A stretch of 45,822 nucleotides of DNA, taken from positions 1 to 45,822 of the IMG/VR virus record IMGVR_UViG_3300023176_002375; one strand, 5' to 3'. This document shows positions 673 to 45,822 of the stretch, piece by piece. The notes beneath the pieces are model-generated. The model searched no databases, was not told the origin of the DNA, and was given only the letters and a program-made list of their open reading frames with translations. The DNA comes from a virus. Positions within the stretch are counted from its first letter, which is position 1; each line of letters begins with the position of its first letter. The translations under genes and the position numbers were made by a program.

Positions 673-748
673 GGGCGTATGGTGTAATAGGATAGCATTT
701 TGGCCTTCTAAGCCGAAGATTCGGGTTCAAATCCTGATACGCCCGCCA
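673..748 (+). tRNA. tRNA-Arg (anticodon UCU), CCA encoded
   Basis: A complete cloverleaf can be folded by eye. The acceptor arms are 673-679 (GGGCGTA) and 738-744 (TACGCCC). The D arm is GTGT/GCAT. The anticodon stem TTGGC/GCCGA encloses the loop CTTCTAA with anticodon TCT. The T arm is TCGGG-TTCAAAT-CCTGA. The discriminator is G745, followed by an encoded CCA at 746-748. No intron is seen. It reads AGA and AGG arginine codons, and AGA is common in the neighbouring genes, which fits a virus supplementing host decoding. Confidence 0.93.
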
Positions 749-4630: not shown

Positions 4631-4999
4631 ATGAAACTCTTCAAATCGTTTGAAGAGTATTTAGAAACAGTAATATTAATGATTAGAGATTTGTCAGACG
4701 ACTCTCTTAAAAGAATAAACTTAGCAATAAATGTCTGTGATTCATACATGGATGAGAATGAAAAAATGTTTAGACTAAATACTACATTAAAAGAATGTTT
4801 TTGGGAAATTGAGGAAGCCATCTTTTGTGGCTTTCACAAATACCTAATAGAACAAAGTGCTAAGACTAAAGAGTTGGTTGATTATCATAGAGTCAATTGC
4901 GAAGGAATAGATTGTAAAATCTGTAAATCAAAAGAATTAACAATAAACAGAATGAGGAATTTAAATGAGAGAACACGACCCAAATTATATTCTCAATAA
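4631..4999 (+). CDS. Hypothetical helical protein with Cys cluster, 122 aa
   Basis: It starts at ATG 4631 behind AAGGTGATTAA, shortly after the reductase stop. The N-terminal 85 residues are amphipathic helices with many acidic residues. Near the end lies a cluster, NCEGIDCKIC, with three cysteines. I recognise no family. The last 35 bases overlap the next small zinc-ribbon gene in another frame. Confidence 0.6.
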   Translation: MKLFKSFEEYLETVILMIRDLSDDSLKRINLAINVCDSYMDENEKMFRLNTTLKECFWEIEEAIFCGFHKYLIEQSAKTKELVDYHRVNCEGIDCKICKSKELTINRMRNLNERTRPKLYSQ

Positions 5000-18805: not shown

Positions 18806-20023
18806 ATGGAAGAAAACATGAAAGCAGAAATTGAAAAGAGCGCACAATACATTGGTATGAGCGTTGAAGAAGCGACGAACAAGTTTGAAGAGATTTGTTC
18901 CGAAAACAACATTGAAACCACTAACCCCATTTCAAGGGGTCTTTGGCGCAACTATGTTGCGAATGTGCGAAGAACGCAAGATAGCGGAGATTCATCCAAA
19001 GGTAATGATTCTTACTACAAAGCAGCATTTGGTTTCTTTGTTTCCCTTGATGCCCCTAGAGACATGATGGCTTGGAATCGCATGAAGGCAAAAGAAGAGT
19101 TTATGCGTGATGCTGATAATGCCCTTGAACAAGGTATTGTTGCTATTGCATCACAAAATGCACTTGGAAAGTGGGTTGTTTCCCGCTATCACAACGGAGA
19201 ATACGGTGAAAAAACTGTTTCAACGCTTCCTTCTGGTGCAGAAGAAGCAGAAGATGGTCGTTTCTTTATTCCTTTGGATAATACCGCAACCTACATGAAT
19301 GGTGGTAAAAACAACAATTACGGTAAGCCTCTTCCCGCAGAACAAATGCGAAGAAGCGGTGTTTTCTTCGGCTCTATCGGTCAAGGAGAAATGAAGCCTT
19401 ACTACTTCTCTTACAAAAATGATGCAGGGGTTCAATTTGCACCAAACACTTTTGAATGGGTGCATTTCCTTTGTATCGCTAACGACAACGGGACTGATAT
19501 TTATGGGGCTAAAGATTTGACTTTGAACAGTCTTTCTCTTAACTCAGAAATGAATCCCGAAAACGAACTTTACCGTGATATGTCGTCTTTTGACTTTGAG
19601 GATTGTTTGCGTGAGAACTTCTCTTCTCATCTTGTTCCTCTTGTTGATATGGACAAAGCGCACATTGAGCGTCAAGCCCTTCCTTCTAAAGAGCGTTATG
19701 TGATTACTGACGGAACTGTGTGTAATATGAACATGACTCCTACAAAGAACGGAAACAGAATCATTAACCTAACTGACTTAAATGCAGAAATGGACTATGA
19801 TTCTGAATCAACGGGTATTACTACCTGTTGGATTCCTGAACATTTGACTCTTGATTTCGGTATTGGTTCTTCCGTTATCGTTATTGGGCGAACTAGTCAA
19901 AGAACGACTGATGAAGGAGTTGAGCCAGTTACTATCAATGTTGCTGGTCTTTACTGCGTTATTCGTCATGGTTCGGCAGTTGAGGTTTCAGTTCCAGTTG
20001 AAGAGGATTTTGACTGGTTTTGA
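18806..20023 (+). CDS. Putative single-stranded DNA-binding protein (RPA-like)
   Basis: The 405-residue product starts at ATG 18806, with GGAAGTGA eight bases upstream. It ends PVEEDFDWF, an acidic tip with terminal aromatics like those by which SSB proteins recruit partners. A C-terminal segment (SSVIVIGRTSQRT, then TINVAGLYCVIRH) looks like an OB-fold. It sits between the clamp loader and a Sak4-like recombination ATPase and is followed by a terminator, consistent with a highly expressed replication protein. Family membership is not proven by any single motif. Confidence 0.45.
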   Translation: MEENMKAEIEKSAQYIGMSVEEATNKFEEICSENNIETTNPISRGLWRNYVANVRRTQDSGDSSKGNDSYYKAAFGFFVSLDAPRDMMAWNRMKAKEEFMRDADNALEQGIVAIASQNALGKWVVSRYHNGEYGEKTVSTLPSGAEEAEDGRFFIPLDNTATYMNGGKNNNYGKPLPAEQMRRSGVFFGSIGQGEMKPYYFSYKNDAGVQFAPNTFEWVHFLCIANDNGTDIYGAKDLTLNSLSLNSEMNPENELYRDMSSFDFEDCLRENFSSHLVPLVDMDKAHIERQALPSKERYVITDGTVCNMNMTPTKNGNRIINLTDLNAEMDYDSESTGITTCWIPEHLTLDFGIGSSVIVIGRTSQRTTDEGVEPVTINVAGLYCVIRHGSAVEVSVPVEEDFDWF

Positions 20024-20066
20024 TTAAAACCACCTTTTGTGTAGTCGTTGGCGTTAATGACGGCCA

Positions 20067-20092
20067 TAGAGGTGCGAAGCCTCTAGTTTTTT
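20067..20092 (+). terminator. Hairpin plus T-run after the putative SSB gene
   Basis: TAGAGG at 20067-20072 pairs with CCTCTA at 20080-20085 (loop about seven bases, with a closing T-G possible), followed by G and six Ts at 20087-20092. It lies 44 bases after the stop at 20023 and separates this gene from the next unit. Confidence 0.65.
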
Positions 20093-20107
20093 AAAAAAGG
20101 TGAAAAT

Positions 20108-21216: not shown

Positions 21217-21686
21217 ACGAACCAAAACAATGTTGTGGGGTAAATTCTTATAATAGCGGGGGCTCAAAGAAAGGAAATAGATGCAGAATGATAGTAAAGG
21301 ATTTTGATACAAGACTTAAATCTTGTCTTAATCCTTATCAAGACCTTTGTTTTATGCATTGTGATTGCGAATATTGCTCGCAAACATATAGTCCTCGCAC
21401 TAATCGTGGTAAAAGACATCCTTCAACGCTTAATGAAAGTTTTTATGGTCGGGTTCGGGATTTCAGAATTAAAAAGTCAGTCCCAGATTTTATTTTAGAA
21501 GAAACTAACATTGAAAAACTCAGAACTATTTGTTTAGTGATGTTTGACGAATACCCCCAGTATTGGTCAGATATTATTTCTATTTCTAAAAGAAAATTTT
21601 TTGTTAAAGAAAAAAATAACAGAATTATGTCAAAAATCAATGAATTACAATTAGAAATAAATAAATTAACGGAGGAATTAGAATGA
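21213..21686 (+). CDS. Cys/His-rich protein with coiled-coil tail, TTG start
   Basis: The frame has no early ATG. TTG 21213, with GAGG seven bases upstream and overlapping the previous stop, is the likely start. The N-terminal 60 residues hold eight cysteines and a histidine, including CFMHCDCEYC, which probably bind zinc. The C-terminal 30 residues form a leucine-rich charged helix (INELQLEINKLTEELE). The family is not recognised. It overlaps the sliding clamp gene by four bases. Confidence 0.58.
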   Translation: MNEPKQCCGVNSYNSGGSKKGNRCRMIVKDFDTRLKSCLNPYQDLCFMHCDCEYCSQTYSPRTNRGKRHPSTLNESFYGRVRDFRIKKSVPDFILEETNIEKLRTICLVMFDEYPQYWSDIISISKRKFFVKEKNNRIMSKINELQLEINKLTEELE

Positions 21687-22450
21687 AATTTACAATTGAT
21701 AGTGATATTCTAAAGAAAGCATTAGAAAGCGTTCAAGTGAGAGGCAAAGGAACAACAAATAGTGGGTTTGGCTCAACTAATTTCGGCACTTATGCTTATT
21801 TGGTAGCCGATACTGCTTCTATTGAAGTTTGGAATGGAAATGCTACTTTTTGTGTTAAAATTAGTATTGATGCCGAGGTTGAAAAACAAGGAAGGGTTTG
21901 TTTAAATAGTGAAACTGTTATTCCCTATCTAAAAAACTTTAGTGGTGAGAATATTATTTTTTCTGTGAATGATTTTATTCTTATCAGTTGCGGAACTAAG
22001 AAAGCCTCAATTCCTTTAGTAGTAAATCATCCAAATGCTGATGCTATTTCAAGAATGCAAAACATGATGAATCCTATTTCATATGAAATTCAGCCGCAGA
22101 CATTTTTTAATTTTGGTAAATCCAAGTTTGAAGGTGCATTTACTCTTACACAAAGACAATTACAGGATGCAATTAAAGCCTGTGAATTAGTCAAAAGTGG
22201 AGTGTATAAGTTTGATTTTAATAATGGGGTGTTGAATGTCTCAACACGCCAAAATGTTACAAACAAATACGAAGAAACAATAACTCCTGCTTTTCCTACG
22301 GGAGAACCTGCTACGGTGGAGTTTAGTTCTCCAATTTATGCTTTCTTTGAGAAAGACCAGATGTTGAATTTTTATCTAAAAGATGACTTTCCTCTTTTAG
22401 TAGTAGCGAATGATAGAATACTGTTAAAAGCACCACATATTTCAGGGTGA
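21683..22450 (+). CDS. pcn: DNA sliding clamp (PCNA-like)
   Basis: The clamp encircles DNA and tethers the polymerase and other PIP-box proteins. The 255-residue length fits the two-domain PCNA rather than the three-domain bacterial beta clamp. The C-terminus, MLNFYLKDDFPLLVVA and RILLKAPHIS, matches the PCNA pattern of a strand, D.PL, and a final LAP.I segment. The N-terminus MKFTIDSDILKKALE is also seen in clamp families. Two proteins here, the polymerase C-half and the 281-residue ATPase, end in PIP boxes that could dock on it. The start is ATG 21683 after ACGGAGGAATTAGA. Confidence 0.8.
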   Translation: MKFTIDSDILKKALESVQVRGKGTTNSGFGSTNFGTYAYLVADTASIEVWNGNATFCVKISIDAEVEKQGRVCLNSETVIPYLKNFSGENIIFSVNDFILISCGTKKASIPLVVNHPNADAISRMQNMMNPISYEIQPQTFFNFGKSKFEGAFTLTQRQLQDAIKACELVKSGVYKFDFNNGVLNVSTRQNVTNKYEETITPAFPTGEPATVEFSSPIYAFFEKDQMLNFYLKDDFPLLVVANDRILLKAPHISG

Positions 22451-22456
22451 ATAATA

Positions 22457-24142
22457 ATGATAATTAGTAAAATGAATGATGGAATGAGAATATACAAATC
22501 TTGGAGAGAAAACGGAGAGAAAAAACATGAAATTGTTCCCTTTAGACCTTACTTCTATGTTTTACAAGATGAACCTGAGCGACCTCACTATAAACCTACT
22601 AAATATCTTACTAGGGATTTTGAGTATCAGCGTGGCGATTGGGTTAATCTTGCGGGACAGCCTTTGAAAAAAGTATTTGTTGAGTCAGCACAAGATATTA
22701 GGAATGCTAAAAATAAGTTTAGGGAAACCTATGAAGCAGATGTTCCTTTTCACTTTCGGTATTGTGTTGATGAGTTAGATGAAATGCCCGAATATAAACT
22801 GCGTAAGTGGTATTGGGATATGGAATGGGCGCAAGGTGGAGAATATCACGACCAATTGACTACAATTGTTGTGTATGATAATTACGACGAAGAATATATT
22901 CAATGGGTGTGGTGGCCTAAAGATGATACTAAAAAAGATTTGGCTGATGTTATTTTAGAAGGAGATATTTGCCCACCTTCTAACTGTTCTGTGCGTTTTT
23001 TCTCATCAGAAAAAGAAATGATTGAGGATTTTATGAACACCATGATTGTAAAAGACCCTGATATGTTAATTGCTTGGTTCGGTCATTTTGCTGATTTACC
23101 AAAGTTATTTGAACGGGCTTCTGCGGTGGGTCTTGACCCACGCATTATTTCACCAACGGCAACAGTCAAGGGATTTAATTCCATGAAAGAAGGTTTTTCT
23201 ACGAAATATTCGGAGAAAGGTTTTTCACCAATTGAACAACCCATTGGTGGGCGAATTACCCTGTCTTTGGACTTAGCATTTGAAAGACAATGGAATGATT
23301 CTCAAAGAGGAACATTACCTTCTCTTTCTCTTGATTATATCGGTGAAACTGTTCTTGATAAGAAGAAGTTAGTGTCGGAAAAGTTTCCTGACCCTAACGA
23401 TTTTTACCGAAGAGCATGGCTTGAAGATACGGAAACTTATCTTAAATATGCTTTAAGAGATGTTGAATTGATGGTTGAAATTGATGAGAAGAACTTTTGT
23501 AGTGAAGCAATTGTTTCTCTTCAACGATTACTGAAAGCACCATTTGATGCTTGTTTCTATGCTTCTCATATGGGTTCTATTTACTTCATGCGAAATGCTG
23601 ATTGGAAAGCACCAACAGGTAGTAAAGTAGATAAAAGACAAGAATATGAAGGTGCTATGATTTACGACCCACTAAGCGAAGGAACAAATGGTTTGCACCT
23701 TAATGTAGCGGCATTTGATTTTGCTGGTCTATATCCTTCAATGATGATTGCACGAAACATTTCTTGGGAGACAAAATCTGTTGAGCCAACTGAATTTGGA
23801 GTTAATATTCTAACTCCAAGAGATTTCAGCGATGTTAAACATGAACAAATGCTATATTACAAAACAGACAAACTCGGCTTGTTGCCGAGAGCCGTTCTTG
23901 AGTTGAAGGAACTCCGCAACGAATATAAACGACTGATGCGAGAGGCGAGAGAAACGGACAATGGCGAATATGCGAAGTGGTATAACAATCAAATGGCTGT
24001 TAAGAGATTAATGGCTTCTTTCTATGGTATTGTTGCCTTTCAAGGATTTGGTTGGGCTGATGTTGATTTAGCCGCAAGTATCACGGCCAGCGCAAGAGAA
24101 GCAATTAGATTAGCCGCATTTGCAGCAAAGGAGATGGAGTAA
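22457..24142 (+). CDS. polB: DNA polymerase B, N-terminal part (exonuclease, motifs A and B)
   Basis: This 561-residue piece carries the 3'-5' exonuclease: Exo I DMEW (D121, E123), Exo II AWFGHFADLP (about 205) and Exo III YALRDVEL (about 330). It also carries polymerase motif A FDFAGLYPSMM (about 420) and motif B KRLMASFYG (about 515), where the usual Asn is replaced by Ala. It stops at TAA 24140 just before where motif C should follow. Motif C lies in a separate gene at 25297. Joined end to end, KEME + MKVVY aligns within one residue of intact archaeal polymerases, so nothing seems lost. The two halves presumably assemble as subunits. The start ATG 22457 follows GGGTGA. Confidence 0.92.
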   Translation: MIISKMNDGMRIYKSWRENGEKKHEIVPFRPYFYVLQDEPERPHYKPTKYLTRDFEYQRGDWVNLAGQPLKKVFVESAQDIRNAKNKFRETYEADVPFHFRYCVDELDEMPEYKLRKWYWDMEWAQGGEYHDQLTTIVVYDNYDEEYIQWVWWPKDDTKKDLADVILEGDICPPSNCSVRFFSSEKEMIEDFMNTMIVKDPDMLIAWFGHFADLPKLFERASAVGLDPRIISPTATVKGFNSMKEGFSTKYSEKGFSPIEQPIGGRITLSLDLAFERQWNDSQRGTLPSLSLDYIGETVLDKKKLVSEKFPDPNDFYRRAWLEDTETYLKYALRDVELMVEIDEKNFCSEAIVSLQRLLKAPFDACFYASHMGSIYFMRNADWKAPTGSKVDKRQEYEGAMIYDPLSEGTNGLHLNVAAFDFAGLYPSMMIARNISWETKSVEPTEFGVNILTPRDFSDVKHEQMLYYKTDKLGLLPRAVLELKELRNEYKRLMREARETDNGEYAKWYNNQMAVKRLMASFYGIVAFQGFGWADVDLAASITASAREAIRLAAFAAKEME

Positions 24143-24744
24143 TGGGAAAAAGGTCATTACCAATTAGAAAAACTATTTATACTTATTGGGAAAATAGCCC
24201 ACTTAAAATAGTCTTAAATAAACAAGCATTTGATAAAAATAATAATAAATGTATGGCTTGTGGTGTGGAGGCAAATATAGACCGAGCGCACATTGTTTCT
24301 AAATTTTATGGAGGTTCAAATGAGCCATCAAATATTCATTGTTTATGTCAAATTTGTCATAAGTTAAGTGAAAATTTACAAGGACATGATTATTGGTTAT
24401 GGATTGCCCTAAAATCAAAATTATTTTCATACGGCACAGACATGACCTATGAATTAGACCATACTTCATCAAAGGATAAGAGTCTTAGACCATATTATAT
24501 GGAATTTGAATATCCTGAAAAATTAAGGAAATACTCTAAAGAATATACTCAACTTTCTTTACTTGAGGGATGGGGAGGAAGAAGCACTATTTGTTATTTG
24601 TATTTAGCAGGTCTTATGCCGAATTCATATTTAGATATTAATTATCCTTTATTATCGGACATAGAAGAAATTCTAGAATATAATTCAGAGATACATTTTT
24701 ATATACCTGAAATAAAAAGGAGATGGAATTATGAAGGAATGTAA
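24142..24744 (+). CDS. HNH endonuclease inserted in the polymerase gene
   Basis: The 200-residue protein has a zinc-HNH core: CMAC (C37, C40), DRAHIVSKFYGG (47-58, catalytic His50), then N64 and CLCQICHKL (C67-H73). HNH enzymes nick or cut DNA and often act as homing endonucleases of introns or as freestanding invaders. The ATG overlaps the stop of the polymerase N-terminal gene (TAATG). Its position at a conserved polymerase site, a known hotspot for inteins and homing genes, suggests that it or an ancestor split the gene. The C-terminal 100 residues are not recognised. Confidence 0.85.
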   Translation: MGKRSLPIRKTIYTYWENSPLKIVLNKQAFDKNNNKCMACGVEANIDRAHIVSKFYGGSNEPSNIHCLCQICHKLSENLQGHDYWLWIALKSKLFSYGTDMTYELDHTSSKDKSLRPYYMEFEYPEKLRKYSKEYTQLSLLEGWGGRSTICYLYLAGLMPNSYLDINYPLLSDIEEILEYNSEIHFYIPEIKRRWNYEGM

Positions 24745-25296: not shown

Positions 25297-26190
25297 ATGA
25301 AAGTAGTATATGGACACACAGATTCAATTTATGTGCAAATTGATTCTGTTGAAACTGCTGAATCTGCAATTAAGCAGATTGAGGCAAAAGTGCGAGAGCA
25401 TTTTCCTAATGTAATGGAACTGGAAAATCATCCTGTTGTTCTTGAATTTGAGAAATACTATTCTGCTTTGGGTGTTGGAACAACAAAGAACCGCAACGCT
25501 GGATTAGTTTCTTGGGAAGATGGAGTATGGTTAGATAAGCCAAAGTTTAGTATGACTGGTTTTACTGCAAAGCGTGTTAGTGAAACTAAATTAGCAAAAG
25601 AAGTGCAAACTAATACTCTTAAAATGTGGGTTGAACAAAAATCTTATGCAGAAATTACTAAGTATTTACATGAAACCTTTAGCGCAGTAAATAACGGTGA
25701 AATTCCTCTTGCTTCTATTATCAAGAGAAGCCGTCTTAGGAAAAACAGATTTACTGTTCAATGCCCCAATTGTGAAACTAGATACAATTTAAGAGACTGT
25801 TCTACTTTACCGCACAAAGTTTGCGAAAAGTGCTCTACGCCAACAAAACAATTTACTACTCTTGAAGGAAAGAAACCTACTATTGGTTCAGGAATTGCTG
25901 GTGTTTTATACGCATGGGAAAAGAAAAACACTAATTTTGATGACTCTTATCTCTTCTTAAAAGTAAAGAGGGTAAATGATTTCTATACCCATCCTTTAAC
26001 TCAAGAAAAGCGAGAAGTTGAATACTTATCAGGCATAACCTACGAGGATTTTGAAGGTTGTAGTCCCGATTGGGACTTCTATGCTCAACAGGTGGTTAAG
26101 AAGGCCGACCCCGTTTTCAAGGCTATGGGGTGGGATATAGCGTCCATACGGACGGGAAAAATACAAGCAAGCCTTGACGAATGGTGGTGA
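25297..26190 (+). CDS. polB: DNA polymerase B, C-terminal part (motif C, thumb, PIP box)
   Basis: The 297-residue piece begins MKVVYGHTDSIYV, polymerase motif C, in which the first Asp of the usual DTD is His (codon CAC) while the second, metal-binding Asp is kept. The thumb region follows. At about 155-180 there is a four-cysteine zinc knuckle, CPNC ... CEKC. The last residues are QASLDEWW, a canonical PIP box (QxxLxxWW) for docking on the viral clamp. It needs the product of 22457-24142 to complete the palm, so the enzyme must be a two-chain polymerase. Start ATG 25297 follows AAGGTGATTAT. Confidence 0.9.
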   Translation: MKVVYGHTDSIYVQIDSVETAESAIKQIEAKVREHFPNVMELENHPVVLEFEKYYSALGVGTTKNRNAGLVSWEDGVWLDKPKFSMTGFTAKRVSETKLAKEVQTNTLKMWVEQKSYAEITKYLHETFSAVNNGEIPLASIIKRSRLRKNRFTVQCPNCETRYNLRDCSTLPHKVCEKCSTPTKQFTTLEGKKPTIGSGIAGVLYAWEKKNTNFDDSYLFLKVKRVNDFYTHPLTQEKREVEYLSGITYEDFEGCSPDWDFYAQQVVKKADPVFKAMGWDIASIRTGKIQASLDEWW

Positions 26191-41725: not shown

Positions 41726-44700
41726 TCACCTCAATGTGCTGGAAGATGTGCTTCTGTTAATTTTAGCAGAAATGTCTCTTCCTATCATATCTGCTATTCT
41801 TCTCATTTCTGATTGTGAGGTATCTTTTGCATTTACAGTAATATTGAAATTATTTACTACATTTTGTGTTTTTCCTCCAACCATAGCCTTAGAATCCTTA
41901 TTGCTAAATACCGTTGCACCTTTCGGGAGATTAACTAATTCTGGCCCTTCTTCACCAACAACAGCCATTCCTCCTTGAGAAGTCCCTCCATCTGCAAAGA
42001 AATCAAAACCAAACATCTTTTTCATTTTTCTTACTAACCATTTTCCGACCTTAAACATGACTAAACCAATAACTGCCGCTAACCAAATAGGTGCGCCAGC
42101 AATAAGAGCGACAATAACACCAACAATTCCCAAAATAACAGCAATACTCTTAGCAAATTGTTTTATATCGGTTACTGTTCCTATAAACCAATCCTTTACC
42201 TTTGTCCAAAGTTCCATCGTCAATGTCCCAATAAAAACAATTGCTAGTGAAAGAACAGTTAATCCGAAAGATACAGCAACGCCAAGCAACCCTACTGCTA
42301 TCTTAACCAAACCATCAATCAAACTTTCAAGACCACCATCACCAAAGAATGCACTAAGAACATCAATAACTCCCTCTTTGATAAGAGAAAATGAAGCCAT
42401 CATCCAACCGATAAACGGAAGGAAAGTTTTTACTATTCCAAATGCTTTCTCCAAAGCAGAAGAAACAACAGGCCAAGCCTTCTTAATAATCAAGAATATC
42501 GCAACAATAGCAAGATTGAGATAAACAAAGGACATAGCCAATCCCCGAATAAGCATACCTAAGACTGGTTTCATCATTTTAAAGAAATCAACGACCTTAA
42601 ATAAAGTCCTAAAGAACTTATGCTTACCTAGAAGATTTTTAAGGCTTTCCATTCGCATTTGTTTAAATTCTTTCAACAAATCTTTAGCGTTAGATTTTTC
42701 TCCTTCCTTTGTAGCAATTTCTGATTCTTTACCTTTAATTTGTTCTTTGGCTTGTTCGTTTTGGTTTAACAAAGGATTAATTCTTTCATCCCTTTCTGTT
42801 TCCGTAATGCTTCCCATACTGTATAATTCTTCAATTGTTTTAATTTGTTCTTCATTTAAAGCAATTTTTTCTTTTAAGGATTTAACTTCTTCCTTTCTCT
42901 TCTTAATAACTTCATTAATTGAATCTATTTCTAATTGGAAAGCAACCGCATTATTGCTCTTAAGAAGTTCTTTTTTCTTTTCAGTTACATTACTGATTTC
43001 TTTCTCATATTTTTGCATATTTTCGTTAAGACGAATAATTTCTTCTGCATCACCAAATTGGTTTGCTATTTCTTTTAGATTTTCTGCTTCCTCATTTACT
43101 GCATTAAATTGTTGTTGTAATTTAGCAAGTTGTTCGCCATATCCTGCCCCAGTCTTCCCCTTTGCTGAGTTTATTTTTTCTTGTAGTTTATCTAATATTT
43201 CTAATTTTTCTTGATAGCCTTCATGGGCAGTAACAACTTTTTGAATATTTTCAGCCTGAACTTCAAATGCTTTTTTTCCTTCTTCTAAATCATCGGGAAC
43301 AAGTGAAAATTTATCCATTTTCTCTTTTGCTTCTGCAAGAAGTTCTTTTTGACTATTCAAAATACCAGTATAATTTTTTATTTTGTTCATAGATTTATTA
43401 GTAACATCCAAAACTCTTTGTTTAGCATCTGCTAATTCATTTTCCGCATCAGCGATAAGACTAGCATCTCCCGATTTATGCGCTATCTTTAATTGTTTTT
43501 CAAATTTAGAGACTTCTTTAGTCGCTTCCGATACTTCTTTACTGGTATTTAAACCAAAAGAAGATGTTTTATTAATAATAGGAAGAACACTAGCAAAAGC
43601 AGAATAATACTCTTCTGCTGATTTTTTTAATTGTTTTGTGTAGTTTTCTTTTCCTTTTTTATTTAGTTTATCTAAATCCTCTTTTGTAGTGGACAACACA
43701 CTTTCAATACTTTTTCTATATTCTTCATTTGCATCAGCAAGAGAACTTCTAGCATTAGTTTCTCTTACCAAACCATTAGCAAGCCTTTGTTCTATCTTTT
43801 GTTGTCTAGTTCTTTGTTGATATGTTAAATTTCCATTTCTTAGTTCTAATTCTTCTAATTCTTGAAGTTTTTCTCTTCTCAATCTATTTTCATTAACTAT
43901 TATAGCAATTTTTTCTTCACTTTCTGCAACTCTTTGATTAACCAAATAATATTGAGTTAAAAATTCTGAAGATTTTTTAATTTGTTCATTATATTTATCT
44001 ACTTCATCCCCGTTTTCTACTCCACCTAATTTAAGAGAGTCTAATTGAAATTGTGCTTTTTCAATTAGGCTTTCTTGTTTCTTAATAAAATCATTGTCAA
44101 TAATATCTTTCATTTCAGGAGTATTATATTGAACTCCTTTAAGCGTCTTATTAATAATTTTAATTTTCTTTTCTAGTTCGGATGCTTCTTTTCTTTCATC
44201 CACATTTAGTAATGTAGGCATTTGTAGTGCTTTTTTGATTTCTTTTTTAAATTGTTTTGGTTTAACTAATGCTTTAACAATTGCTTGTGGTTTAAAAAAC
44301 GACCTTGTAGTAATTTGTTTAAACATATCTTTAAGACCAGTCATAACTCGTTTATCTTCAACAGTAGGAGTTATGCGAAAGAAATTTTTAATTTTTCCAA
44401 ATTTAGTTGCTTCTTTTTCAACCTCTTTCATACCTTCAAAGAATTTATCGGTTTCAAAATTAAATTGAATTGGATTTTTCGAAAATTCGGTCACTTTTTT
44501 CATTTGCTTAAACACATTTTTAAATATGTTGGGCGAACTTTCTTTTTCTAATTCTGCAATAATTTCTTTTATTTTTTCTAAATCCTCAATATCTTGAGGG
44601 TCAGTTGAGGCAACTAATTTTGGGTCAGCCGCTAGTTTCTTGTATTTTTCTAATTCTTTATTTAAACCGCTATGGTTATCTCTAGTTTTTCTGATAACTC

Positions 44701-45280
44701 CACCTGCAAATTGCATAGTAGAAGAAAATTGATTCATTATTCTAAACATTCCTCTAGGTAAAAACCCATACATAAACTTACGAGCCTTAGCCGCCTCAAA
44801 CCCAAATACAGTTAATTCTTCTCTCGCTGAACTTAAAAATTCAGCAAAGTATTCTAACGAAGTTCCTCCTTGTTTAAGATAAACTGTCAAACCTTCAAGA
44901 AATGGAACTGCCCTTCCTTCTCTTGCGAATTTATTAACAGTATTAGTCAAAATTTGAGTTCTTTTATTAAAGTTCCCCATTTTTTCGCCAGCAACACCAG
45001 CAAGGGCTTGCCCATATTCATTAACTCTTACACCTGCTTCTGTGAAATACTTTCCGTCTTTTACGCTATCCACTAATTTAGATTGAGCATAAGATAAATT
45101 ATCAATAGATTTAATTGCTGGCTTCATAGACTTAGCAAAAGAAGAGTTAGTTTTCATTAACTGTTCTGTTGCCTTATTAGCACCTTGGAAAACTGTTTCA
45201 TAGTTAGACATGACAGGAATCATGCCGTCTAAAACTTTTTGGAGTTTTCTGATAGACGCATTTAAAGCCGCAACATCCAA
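41726..45280 (-). CDS. Tail tape measure protein
   Basis: The tape measure sets tail length. The 1184-residue product has long charged helices with coiled-coil character (about 350-880) and hydrophobic membrane-active segments (about 900-1090, e.g. AKSIAVILGIVGVIVALIAG). Near the end it has the hallmark GGMAVVGEEGPELVNLPKGA, common to many phage tape measures. At the usual 1.5 angstrom per residue it predicts a tail of about 175-180 nm. There is no ATG at the N-terminus; TTG 45280 with AGGAAGTG upstream is the best start. It follows the tail chaperone genes. Confidence 0.93.
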   Translation of the reverse strand: MDVAALNASIRKLQKVLDGMIPVMSNYETVFQGANKATEQLMKTNSSFAKSMKPAIKSIDNLSYAQSKLVDSVKDGKYFTEAGVRVNEYGQALAGVAGEKMGNFNKRTQILTNTVNKFAREGRAVPFLEGLTVYLKQGGTSLEYFAEFLSSAREELTVFGFEAAKARKFMYGFLPRGMFRIMNQFSSTMQFAGGVIRKTRDNHSGLNKELEKYKKLAADPKLVASTDPQDIEDLEKIKEIIAELEKESSPNIFKNVFKQMKKVTEFSKNPIQFNFETDKFFEGMKEVEKEATKFGKIKNFFRITPTVEDKRVMTGLKDMFKQITTRSFFKPQAIVKALVKPKQFKKEIKKALQMPTLLNVDERKEASELEKKIKIINKTLKGVQYNTPEMKDIIDNDFIKKQESLIEKAQFQLDSLKLGGVENGDEVDKYNEQIKKSSEFLTQYYLVNQRVAESEEKIAIIVNENRLRREKLQELEELELRNGNLTYQQRTRQQKIEQRLANGLVRETNARSSLADANEEYRKSIESVLSTTKEDLDKLNKKGKENYTKQLKKSAEEYYSAFASVLPIINKTSSFGLNTSKEVSEATKEVSKFEKQLKIAHKSGDASLIADAENELADAKQRVLDVTNKSMNKIKNYTGILNSQKELLAEAKEKMDKFSLVPDDLEEGKKAFEVQAENIQKVVTAHEGYQEKLEILDKLQEKINSAKGKTGAGYGEQLAKLQQQFNAVNEEAENLKEIANQFGDAEEIIRLNENMQKYEKEISNVTEKKKELLKSNNAVAFQLEIDSINEVIKKRKEEVKSLKEKIALNEEQIKTIEELYSMGSITETERDERINPLLNQNEQAKEQIKGKESEIATKEGEKSNAKDLLKEFKQMRMESLKNLLGKHKFFRTLFKVVDFFKMMKPVLGMLIRGLAMSFVYLNLAIVAIFLIIKKAWPVVSSALEKAFGIVKTFLPFIGWMMASFSLIKEGVIDVLSAFFGDGGLESLIDGLVKIAVGLLGVAVSFGLTVLSLAIVFIGTLTMELWTKVKDWFIGTVTDIKQFAKSIAVILGIVGVIVALIAGAPIWLAAVIGLVMFKVGKWLVRKMKKMFGFDFFADGGTSQGGMAVVGEEGPELVNLPKGATVFSNKDSKAMVGGKTQNVVNNFNITVNAKDTSQSEMRRIADMIGRDISAKINRSTSSSTLR

Positions 45281-45284
45281 ATAA

Positions 45285-45494
45285 TCACTTCCTCATTTTT
45301 TTGTTGTGTTTCTCCATTTCTTCTGCTTCCATTTGTTTTACTGCTAAATCAACAGATAATAAATCCATGACTAAACTAGCGGGCATTTTATATATTTCAA
45401 GTGGACTAATTGCTAAGGCTTTCGCTAAGGTATAAACAACGACTAAAGAAGCCTCATGGGGTTCGGCTTTGCCTCCCCTCAATACTGACTTCAT
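45285..45494 (-). CDS. Tail assembly chaperone, downstream (T-like) part
   Basis: The 69-residue frame can start at ATG 45494, overlapping the upstream stop. It also lies exactly in the -1 frame relative to the upstream gene and in phase with the slippery site at 45500-45506. In siphoviruses the equivalent part is made as a G-T fusion just before the tape measure gene. The sequence is helical, ending in an EEMEKHNKKMRK tail. Confidence 0.7.
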   Translation of the reverse strand: MKSVLRGGKAEPHEASLVVVYTLAKALAISPLEIYKMPASLVMDLLSVDLAVKQMEAEEMEKHNKKMRK

Positions 45495-45822
45495 TCTTCG
45501 TTTTTTTCTTCATCCCCCGAAAAAGTATCAAAGGGATTTGGTAGGATTTCTTTAATCTGATTCCCAATATAAGGAGTCAAACGAATAATATCAATAGCAG
45601 TAAGCGAAGGCTCTGTCTTTACGATAAAATTATCAACCATATAACGATACATTGAGTTCAAATCTAATTTCATGTCTTGGTTTCTTGCATCCAGTTGCAT
45701 GACACTATTCACGGCTTTATCAATTTCAAGCCATGTAGGTTCTTTAATCCAAACCTTTAGGTATTCGTCGCTTTCTGGTGCTACACGAACATAGTGTAGT
45801 TTTGGCTCAGTTAGTGCAAATA
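45491..45822 (-). CDS. Tail assembly chaperone, upstream (G-like) part, 5' partial
   Basis: The reverse frame is open to the window edge; 110 residues are visible, the first complete codon at 45820-45818. The product is helical with a central segment MYRYMVDNFIVKTEPSLT and PYIGNQIKEILPNP, typical of tail assembly chaperones. It ends in an acidic tail encoded over the slippery A-AAA-AAC. The chaperone guards the tape measure during tail assembly. Confidence 0.7.
   Translation of the reverse strand, partial: FALTEPKLHYVRVAPESDEYLKVWIKEPTWLEIDKAVNSVMQLDARNQDMKLDLNSMYRYMVDNFIVKTEPSLTAIDIIRLTPYIGNQIKEILPNPFDTFSGDEEKNEE
45500..45506 (-). other. Probable -1 ribosomal frameshift slippery site
   Basis: On the reverse strand, codons GAA AAA AAC contain the heptamer A-AAA-AAC exactly in the X-XXY-YYZ phase. 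A -1 shift continues as CGA AGA ATG AAG TCA into the downstream frame and fuses the two chaperone parts, eight to ten bases before the zero-frame stop. Confidence 0.7.

Follow-up and report, generated by a model that had tools for sequence, protein, structure and literature searches.

Introduction

In phage lambda and other long-tailed phages, the tail assembly chaperones G and GT are encoded by short open reading frames (ORFs) of low sequence identity that lie ahead of the tape measure gene, with a slippery heptamer of the form X XXY YYZ toward the 3′ end of G and with T in the −1 frame; in lambda itself the slippery site is G GGA AAG. Bacterial −1 cassettes of the dnaX type combine a Shine-Dalgarno (SD) sequence, placed at a spacing of about 10 nt, with the heptamer A AAA AAG and a stem-loop. 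Here we describe a locus that shares features with both, found in IMG/VR virus record IMGVR_UViG_3300023176_002375 (45,822 nt, 34.7% G+C; hereafter the window, meaning this whole stretch of DNA). Two short overlapping ORFs directly ahead of its tape measure gene are, as judged from sequence comparison, very probably the G and T of a tail assembly chaperone, joined into a G-T fusion by a −1 frameshift. The gene order, the short chaperone ORFs of low identity, the heptamer near the G end and the position of T in the −1 frame are those of the lambda-type systems, from which the locus differs in the archaeal-type gene content of its genome, in having AAC as the second heptamer codon in most junctions, and in possessing a conserved SD-like element and, in many members, a conserved stem. 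The lambda heptamer G GGA AAG occurs in 2 of 100 related junctions at <90% identity. With the dnaX-type cassette the locus shares an SD-like element at fixed upstream spacing and a heptamer, followed in part of the family by a predicted stem-loop; the gene is unrelated, the SD spacing is 7 nt, the host domain is probably another one and the stem is not general.

Excerpts of PMC5009743 and PMC8211752 document few cases of archaeal frameshifting; frameshifts are predicted there at −1 for HVTV-1, HCTV-1, HCTV-2 and HCTV-5 and at +1 for HSTV-2, and a passage of PMC7911831 gives G GGA AAT for Hardycor1. The haloarchaeal tailed viruses with predicted −1 frameshifts belong to other virus families. 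One of them is HCTV-2, an archaeal virus whose chaperone is 28.2% identical to the G of the window (E value, E, 8e-3); its record holds a joined chaperone coding sequence, the first ORF of which has A AAA AAC directly before its TGA. Tailed phages vary in the shift they use, which may be −1, −2 or +1 and is −2 in Mu (PMC5009743, in an excerpt). The Aoguangviridae profile (magroviruses) labels a TAC gene and leaves frameshifting unmentioned, the word 'frameshift' is absent from PMC10160649, and we found no tail frameshift of a magrovirus or of Poseidoniales in the literature, where an earlier mention may exist. Frameshifting of G/GT is classical and archaeal cases are already in print, and the window is a further case; what it adds in detail is that an SD-like element is conserved, that a stem accompanies it and that the frame changes among relatives.

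Results and Discussion

The G-T junction of the window comprises the following features, listed in the direction of reading.

45820–45491, minus strand: G-like tail assembly chaperone ORF, 3′ 109 codons, matching phrog_25860
45518–45514, minus strand: SD-like GGGGG, 7 nt 5′ of the heptamer, recognized from its same place in relatives and from codon bias
45512–45510, minus strand: TGA stop of the −1 frame directly 5′ of the heptamer, seen in the sequence
45506–45500, minus strand: slippery heptamer A AAA AAC, in phase with the G-like ORF
45500–45285, minus strand: −1 frame encoding the putative T part of the G-T fusion, assigned from the T ORF, a weak family match and the ratio of nonsynonymous (dN) to synonymous (dS) change
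45499–45441, minus strand: predicted stem-loop 3′ of the heptamer, −17.9 kcal/mol, z score (z) −1.67
45494–45491, minus strand: ATGA in which the G stop overlaps a possible T start, seen in the sequence
45280–41726, minus strand: tape measure protein ORF, 1184 residues, matching phrog_19914 (tail length tape measure protein, E 9e-10)

As can be seen, the heptamer sits in a run of seven A residues (45507–45501) close to the 3′ end of the G-like ORF, which reads GGG GAT GAA GAA AAA AAC GAA GAA TGA on the minus strand, so that the full heptamer codons AAA and AAC are the fourth and third ahead of the G stop (TGA, 45493–45491). Downstream of the TGA at 45512–45510 the −1 frame is open up to TGA 45287–45285 and takes in the T ORF, which as listed has 69 residues and starts at the ATG at 45494 (45494–45285). 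The 5′ end of G is cut by the window edge (45822); the longer G of the relative L002 has 123 residues from its ATG. An earlier inspection of the letters and their ORFs (the sequence-only reading) had proposed an in-phase A AAA AAC near the 3′ end of the upstream frame, a −1 frame running into the downstream one, an overlapping ATGA and a G/GT-like gene order ahead of the tape measure gene; the first three are present at the positions just given, and the last is borne out by the ORF order together with the family matches. The G of the window matches the tail assembly chaperone family phrog_25860 with E 3.4e-4, a family also matched by 16 of 19 aligned relatives (best E 3.8e-7), and the relative L003 has the order tail protein, G, T, tape measure. 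No relative of G was found in genome_contigs, and the G of L077 had no match among phage records.

Conservation of the heptamer among relatives

AAAAAAC occurs 22 times on both strands of the window against 34.6 times expected from shuffles, and for this reason the heptamer alone is no proof; conservation is the test. Relatives were collected in four IMG/VR scans, two by G and two by T, the G scans contributing the best 80 of 87 and the best 80 of 352 relatives; one of the six peptide patterns used in the first G scan includes residues coded by the heptamer, and the patterns of the other three scans do not. This gave 245 usable loci including the window, many being the same contig fetched repeatedly, of which 154 are distinct over 270 nt and 100 remain at <90% nucleotide identity, with 91 of the latter constituting the non-redundant −1 junctions. 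Locus L147, without upstream DNA, was removed ahead of all counts, and L166, in which T is broken, is included in the 154 and the 100 and excluded from the set of 99 used below.

All 154 distinct junctions carry an in-phase A AAA AAN (A-type) or G GGA AAN (G-type) heptamer no more than 36 nt from the G stop, as compared with 3 occurrences at 8442 codon positions elsewhere in G. Conservation of the heptamer, which the sequence-only reading had named as a check, thus holds throughout; the case that reading had named as refuting, ATGA kept without the heptamer, was found in 0 of 154, and the reverse, a heptamer without ATGA, is common. By the reading frame of T, 141 junctions are open at −1 and 12 at −2/+1, and one has T broken. 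The 141 read AAAAAAC (57), GGGAAAC (46), AAAAAAG (11), GGGAAAA (10), GGGAAAT (10), AAAAAAA (4) and GGGAAAG (3), and G-type heptamers account for 50 of the 99 junctions. On a tree of the 99 G+T proteins a single change separates G-type from A-type heptamers (support 98/82); because this swap alters three bases and an amino acid while the heptamer stays, it is slipperiness that has been kept. Codon choice is likewise biased, asparagine at the second heptamer codon being AAC in 66 of 75 cases versus 27% in long ORFs. In L166 the heptamer (GGGAAAC) is intact and the −1 frame closes 35 nt past the G stop, possibly through an assembly or sequence error.

T itself is constrained as protein in the −1 frame, with dS 0.76 and dN 0.07 between the window and L002.

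Upstream SD-like element and −1-frame stop

The codon starting 12 nt ahead of the first full codon of the heptamer reads GGG in 53 and GAG in 39 junctions, together 92 of 100. Where it encodes glutamate it is GAG in 39/39, compared to 18% of glutamates in long ORFs of these loci, and where it encodes glycine it is GGG in 53/59 versus 10%. The SD-like 5-mer to which it belongs ends 7 nt 5′ of the heptamer and reads GGGGG (39), GGAGG (38) or AGGGG (13) (n = 100), keeping its spacing to the heptamer while the distance from heptamer codon to G stop spans 6–27 nt. A second fixed element is a TGA in the −1 frame, which 91 of 99 junctions have at one and the same place 5′ of the heptamer, with a −1-frame stop ≤10 nt from the first full heptamer codon in 93 of 99; in these junctions the −1 frame is therefore open only from about the heptamer onward.

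The virus seems to start its genes with SD-like motifs: such a motif precedes some ATG within the first 30 codons of 30 of 39 virus ORFs, versus 19 of 265 when internal ATGs are counted one by one, a figure obtained somewhat differently from that for the ORFs. The SD-like motif of the junction may pair with the host 16S RNA. Ahead of the G start, four relatives (L003, at 4919–4960, L010, L013 and L031) share the stretch TCCACCAACA...TTTGTTTGTTTGTTGG...AGGTGGA, where a CCACC lying farther upstream would be able to pair with the SD of G; around this SD, three of the four fold no better than shuffles (z +0.39, +1.28 and +0.21) and the remaining one has z −1.40.

Downstream stem-loop

Folding downstream of the heptamer is stronger than in shuffled sequences at one place: 50-nt segments starting 8 and 14 nt past the start of the first heptamer codon have mean z of −1.66 and −2.29, compared with −0.57 to +0.06 for six other 50-nt segments. 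Over 64 nt the stem is strong in the A-type −1 class (mean z −4.08; 36/41 below −2) and in the −2/+1 class (mean z −4.77; 8/8 below −2), and weaker in the G-type class (mean z −2.02; 23/50 below −2). L002, the nearest relative of the window, has a stem with z −3.47. Since RNAalifold gave no pairs and helix registers differ between subgroups, the commonest register was written by hand and counted; this choice followed inspection of the folds of those very sequences and is thus biased toward the helix. The count (alignment A3) covers 46 of 49 A-type and −2/+1 representatives, leaving aside L112, L131 and L142, in which the heptamer codon lies 24 nt from the stop. In these 46 junctions the 15-pair helix has 73.6% of its cells paired versus 38.7–52.3% when slid, 93 cells with double changes versus 26–51, and a covariation score of 0.372 versus 0.152–0.181, although a slide by −2 yields as many pairs changed on both sides (12 vs 12) and a larger number of further pair types (37 vs 35), and although both helix arms are also protein-coding. 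A search of Rfam with window positions 44900–45822 gave no match at E up to 1.

Several observations weigh against a G-T frameshift with these signals. Half of the G-type junctions (25/50) lack a stem signal (z above −1), and their helix is unconvincing, with 48.5% of cells paired versus 38.3–42.7% slid and with a covariation score (0.142) exceeded by that of the +1 slide (0.173). RNAalifold returned no consensus pairs on either alignment. The stem of the window is modest, 15 of 200 shuffles folding equally well, and its register differs from that of most relatives; the fold downstream of the HCTV-2 heptamer shows no stem (z 0.09). Outside the stem, the T of the window has a weak match only, to the tail assembly chaperone family phrog_9001 (E 0.024), and the ATGA at 45494–45491 would allow some reinitiation. 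The downstream stem that the sequence-only reading had suggested looking for is thus present in the A-type class, missing in about half of the G-type class and modest in the window. G-type relatives without stem signal, among them L041, L050, L051, L070, L168 and L172, keep G GGA AAN and the upstream GGG; in these a different stimulator may act, or there may be none.

Proposed mechanism and its alternatives

In the mechanism that we propose, most ribosomes would stop at the G stop and release G, while a minority, held by the SD-like GGGGG behind and the stem-loop ahead, would move back by one base, both tRNAs slipping on A AAA AAC, and read on into T to yield the G-T fusion. By analogy with lambda, G would serve to bind the tape measure protein, and recruitment of the tail tube protein would fall to the T part of GT. 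The virus carries a tRNA-Lys (anticodon TTT; 20002–20093, plus strand), which reads AAA of the slippery site and may either influence slippage or only serve the A-rich codon usage, and a tRNA-Arg (TCT; 673–748, plus strand).

Termination followed by reinitiation, by which T would be a separate protein started from the ATG that overlaps the G stop, had been put forward as an alternative by the sequence-only reading and we consider it improbable. The overlapping ATG exists in the window; in the non-redundant set it is present, as ATGA, in 11 of the 91 −1 junctions, and an ATG overlaps the G stop in 7 of the 8 −2/+1 junctions. Set against this, the heptamer is kept in 154/154, the SD-like element and the −1-frame stop are spaced from the heptamer and not from the G stop, and 44 of the 91 −1 junctions hold no ATG, GTG or TTG from the heptamer to +21, and 19 of the 91 none up to +60. 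The start codon census rejects reinitiation as the sole route; in members with the ATG some of it may occur.

Transcriptional slippage, in which an A run would add a base to part of the mRNAs and so fuse G and T, finds a suitable seven-A run in the window and is more doubtful still. Against it stand the G GGA AAN members, half of the set, which lack a long homopolymer, as well as the non-A base that precedes the heptamer in 15 of 41 A-type −1 junctions, and the conserved SD-like element and stem, which fit ribosomes. The existence of G GGA AAN members, and of A-type ones that lack the seventh A, leads us to reject polymerase slippage as a general route. The least probable alternative, an unimportant chance heptamer in an A-rich genome with two ordinary overlapping genes, can point to AAAAAAC not being rare in the window and is rejected on the position-specific conservation in relatives (154/154 vs 3/8442).

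The −2/+1 sublineage

The −1 frameshift proposed for the window is accompanied, among its relatives, by a class that is invisible from the window alone. Twelve distinct junctions (8 at <90% identity; 14 contigs) have T in the −2/+1 frame, all with AAAAAAG and all reading GA[AC] GAA AAA AAG GA[TC]; a pattern scan for such junctions returned 14 contigs, none beyond those already collected. On alignment these junctions have one base fewer between heptamer and T than their −1 relatives. The 8 non-redundant members keep the SD-like element and the stem, which lies at the same place in T (register 60 versus 62 in the −1 class). Among the matches listed, the T proteins of the class are 64–97% identical to the two used as queries. 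Purifying selection acts on T in the −2/+1 frame, with dN/dS of about 0.05–0.14 in 7 pairs and a higher ratio for the −1 frame in each, two of these pairs having few changes. Because 12 distinct sequences share the frame and T is under selection in it, sequencing error is rejected as its cause. The −2/+1 label needs three changes on the tree of the 99 G+T proteins, and a single origin of the class may nonetheless be considered.

We put at about even the chances that this sublineage has changed its mode of shifting, by a −2 slip on A7G. In such a tandem slip both lysine tRNAs would re-pair on AAA AAA within A7, and the fusion would match that of the −1 relatives in length; we infer −2 as the favoured direction from an SD spacing and a stem that agree with those found in relatives that shift backward. 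Alternatively, the class may use a +1 slip from AAA to AAA, with a product one residue shorter, or may make T by reinitiation, for which an ATG overlapping the G stop is available in 11 of the 12 (it is absent in L088). A −2 shift would recall phage Mu, where T also lies in the −2 frame; unlike in Mu, members that are closely related have here either a −1 or a −2/+1 junction, with shared signals around it and at A7G.

The virus and its gene content

The plus strand of the window encodes a small subunit of RFC, a split family B DNA polymerase, an ATP ligase, GroEL, a ribonucleotide reductase and a TFIIB-like factor, this replication gene set running opposite to the morphogenesis genes on the minus strand. 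The polymerase occupies two ORFs with an HNH-like ORF between them (22457–24142, 24142–24744 and 25297–26190, plus strand); the HNH, TFIIB and RFC matches fall below the curated whole-protein cut-offs of NCBI or Pfam. With the polymerase as query, 1161 phage records were returned at E up to 1e-5, all at <60% identity, a haloarchaeal virus ranking first (24.8%) and cyanophages following closely. No support was found for ORF 21683–22450 as PCNA, and among the genes of the window none was identified as a capsid gene. The gene content fits descriptions of the Magrovirales, viruses of marine Poseidoniales (PMC10768690, PMC12999244), and we regard the window as probably derived from a marine, archaeal tailed virus that resembles magroviruses in this respect. 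Together with the SD-like element, the −1-frame stop and the −2/+1 sublineage, this archaeal gene content goes beyond what the sequence-only reading had noted. The tape measure ORF has 1184 residues in the window (41726–45280) and 556 in L003 (5556–7226), and tail length may therefore differ about twofold among relatives.

Significance

For annotation, the finding means that gene callers will miss or mis-start T wherever a start codon near the G stop is lacking, as is the case in many junctions. For the biology of these viruses, the family offers about 100 natural variants of one signal from apparently archaeal viruses, and the rules of archaeal slippage (which heptamers serve, at which SD spacing, and whether a stem is needed) should therefore be readable from evolution. 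The sublineage in which T has moved to the −2/+1 frame with the signal unchanged amounts to a natural experiment on the evolution of shift direction.
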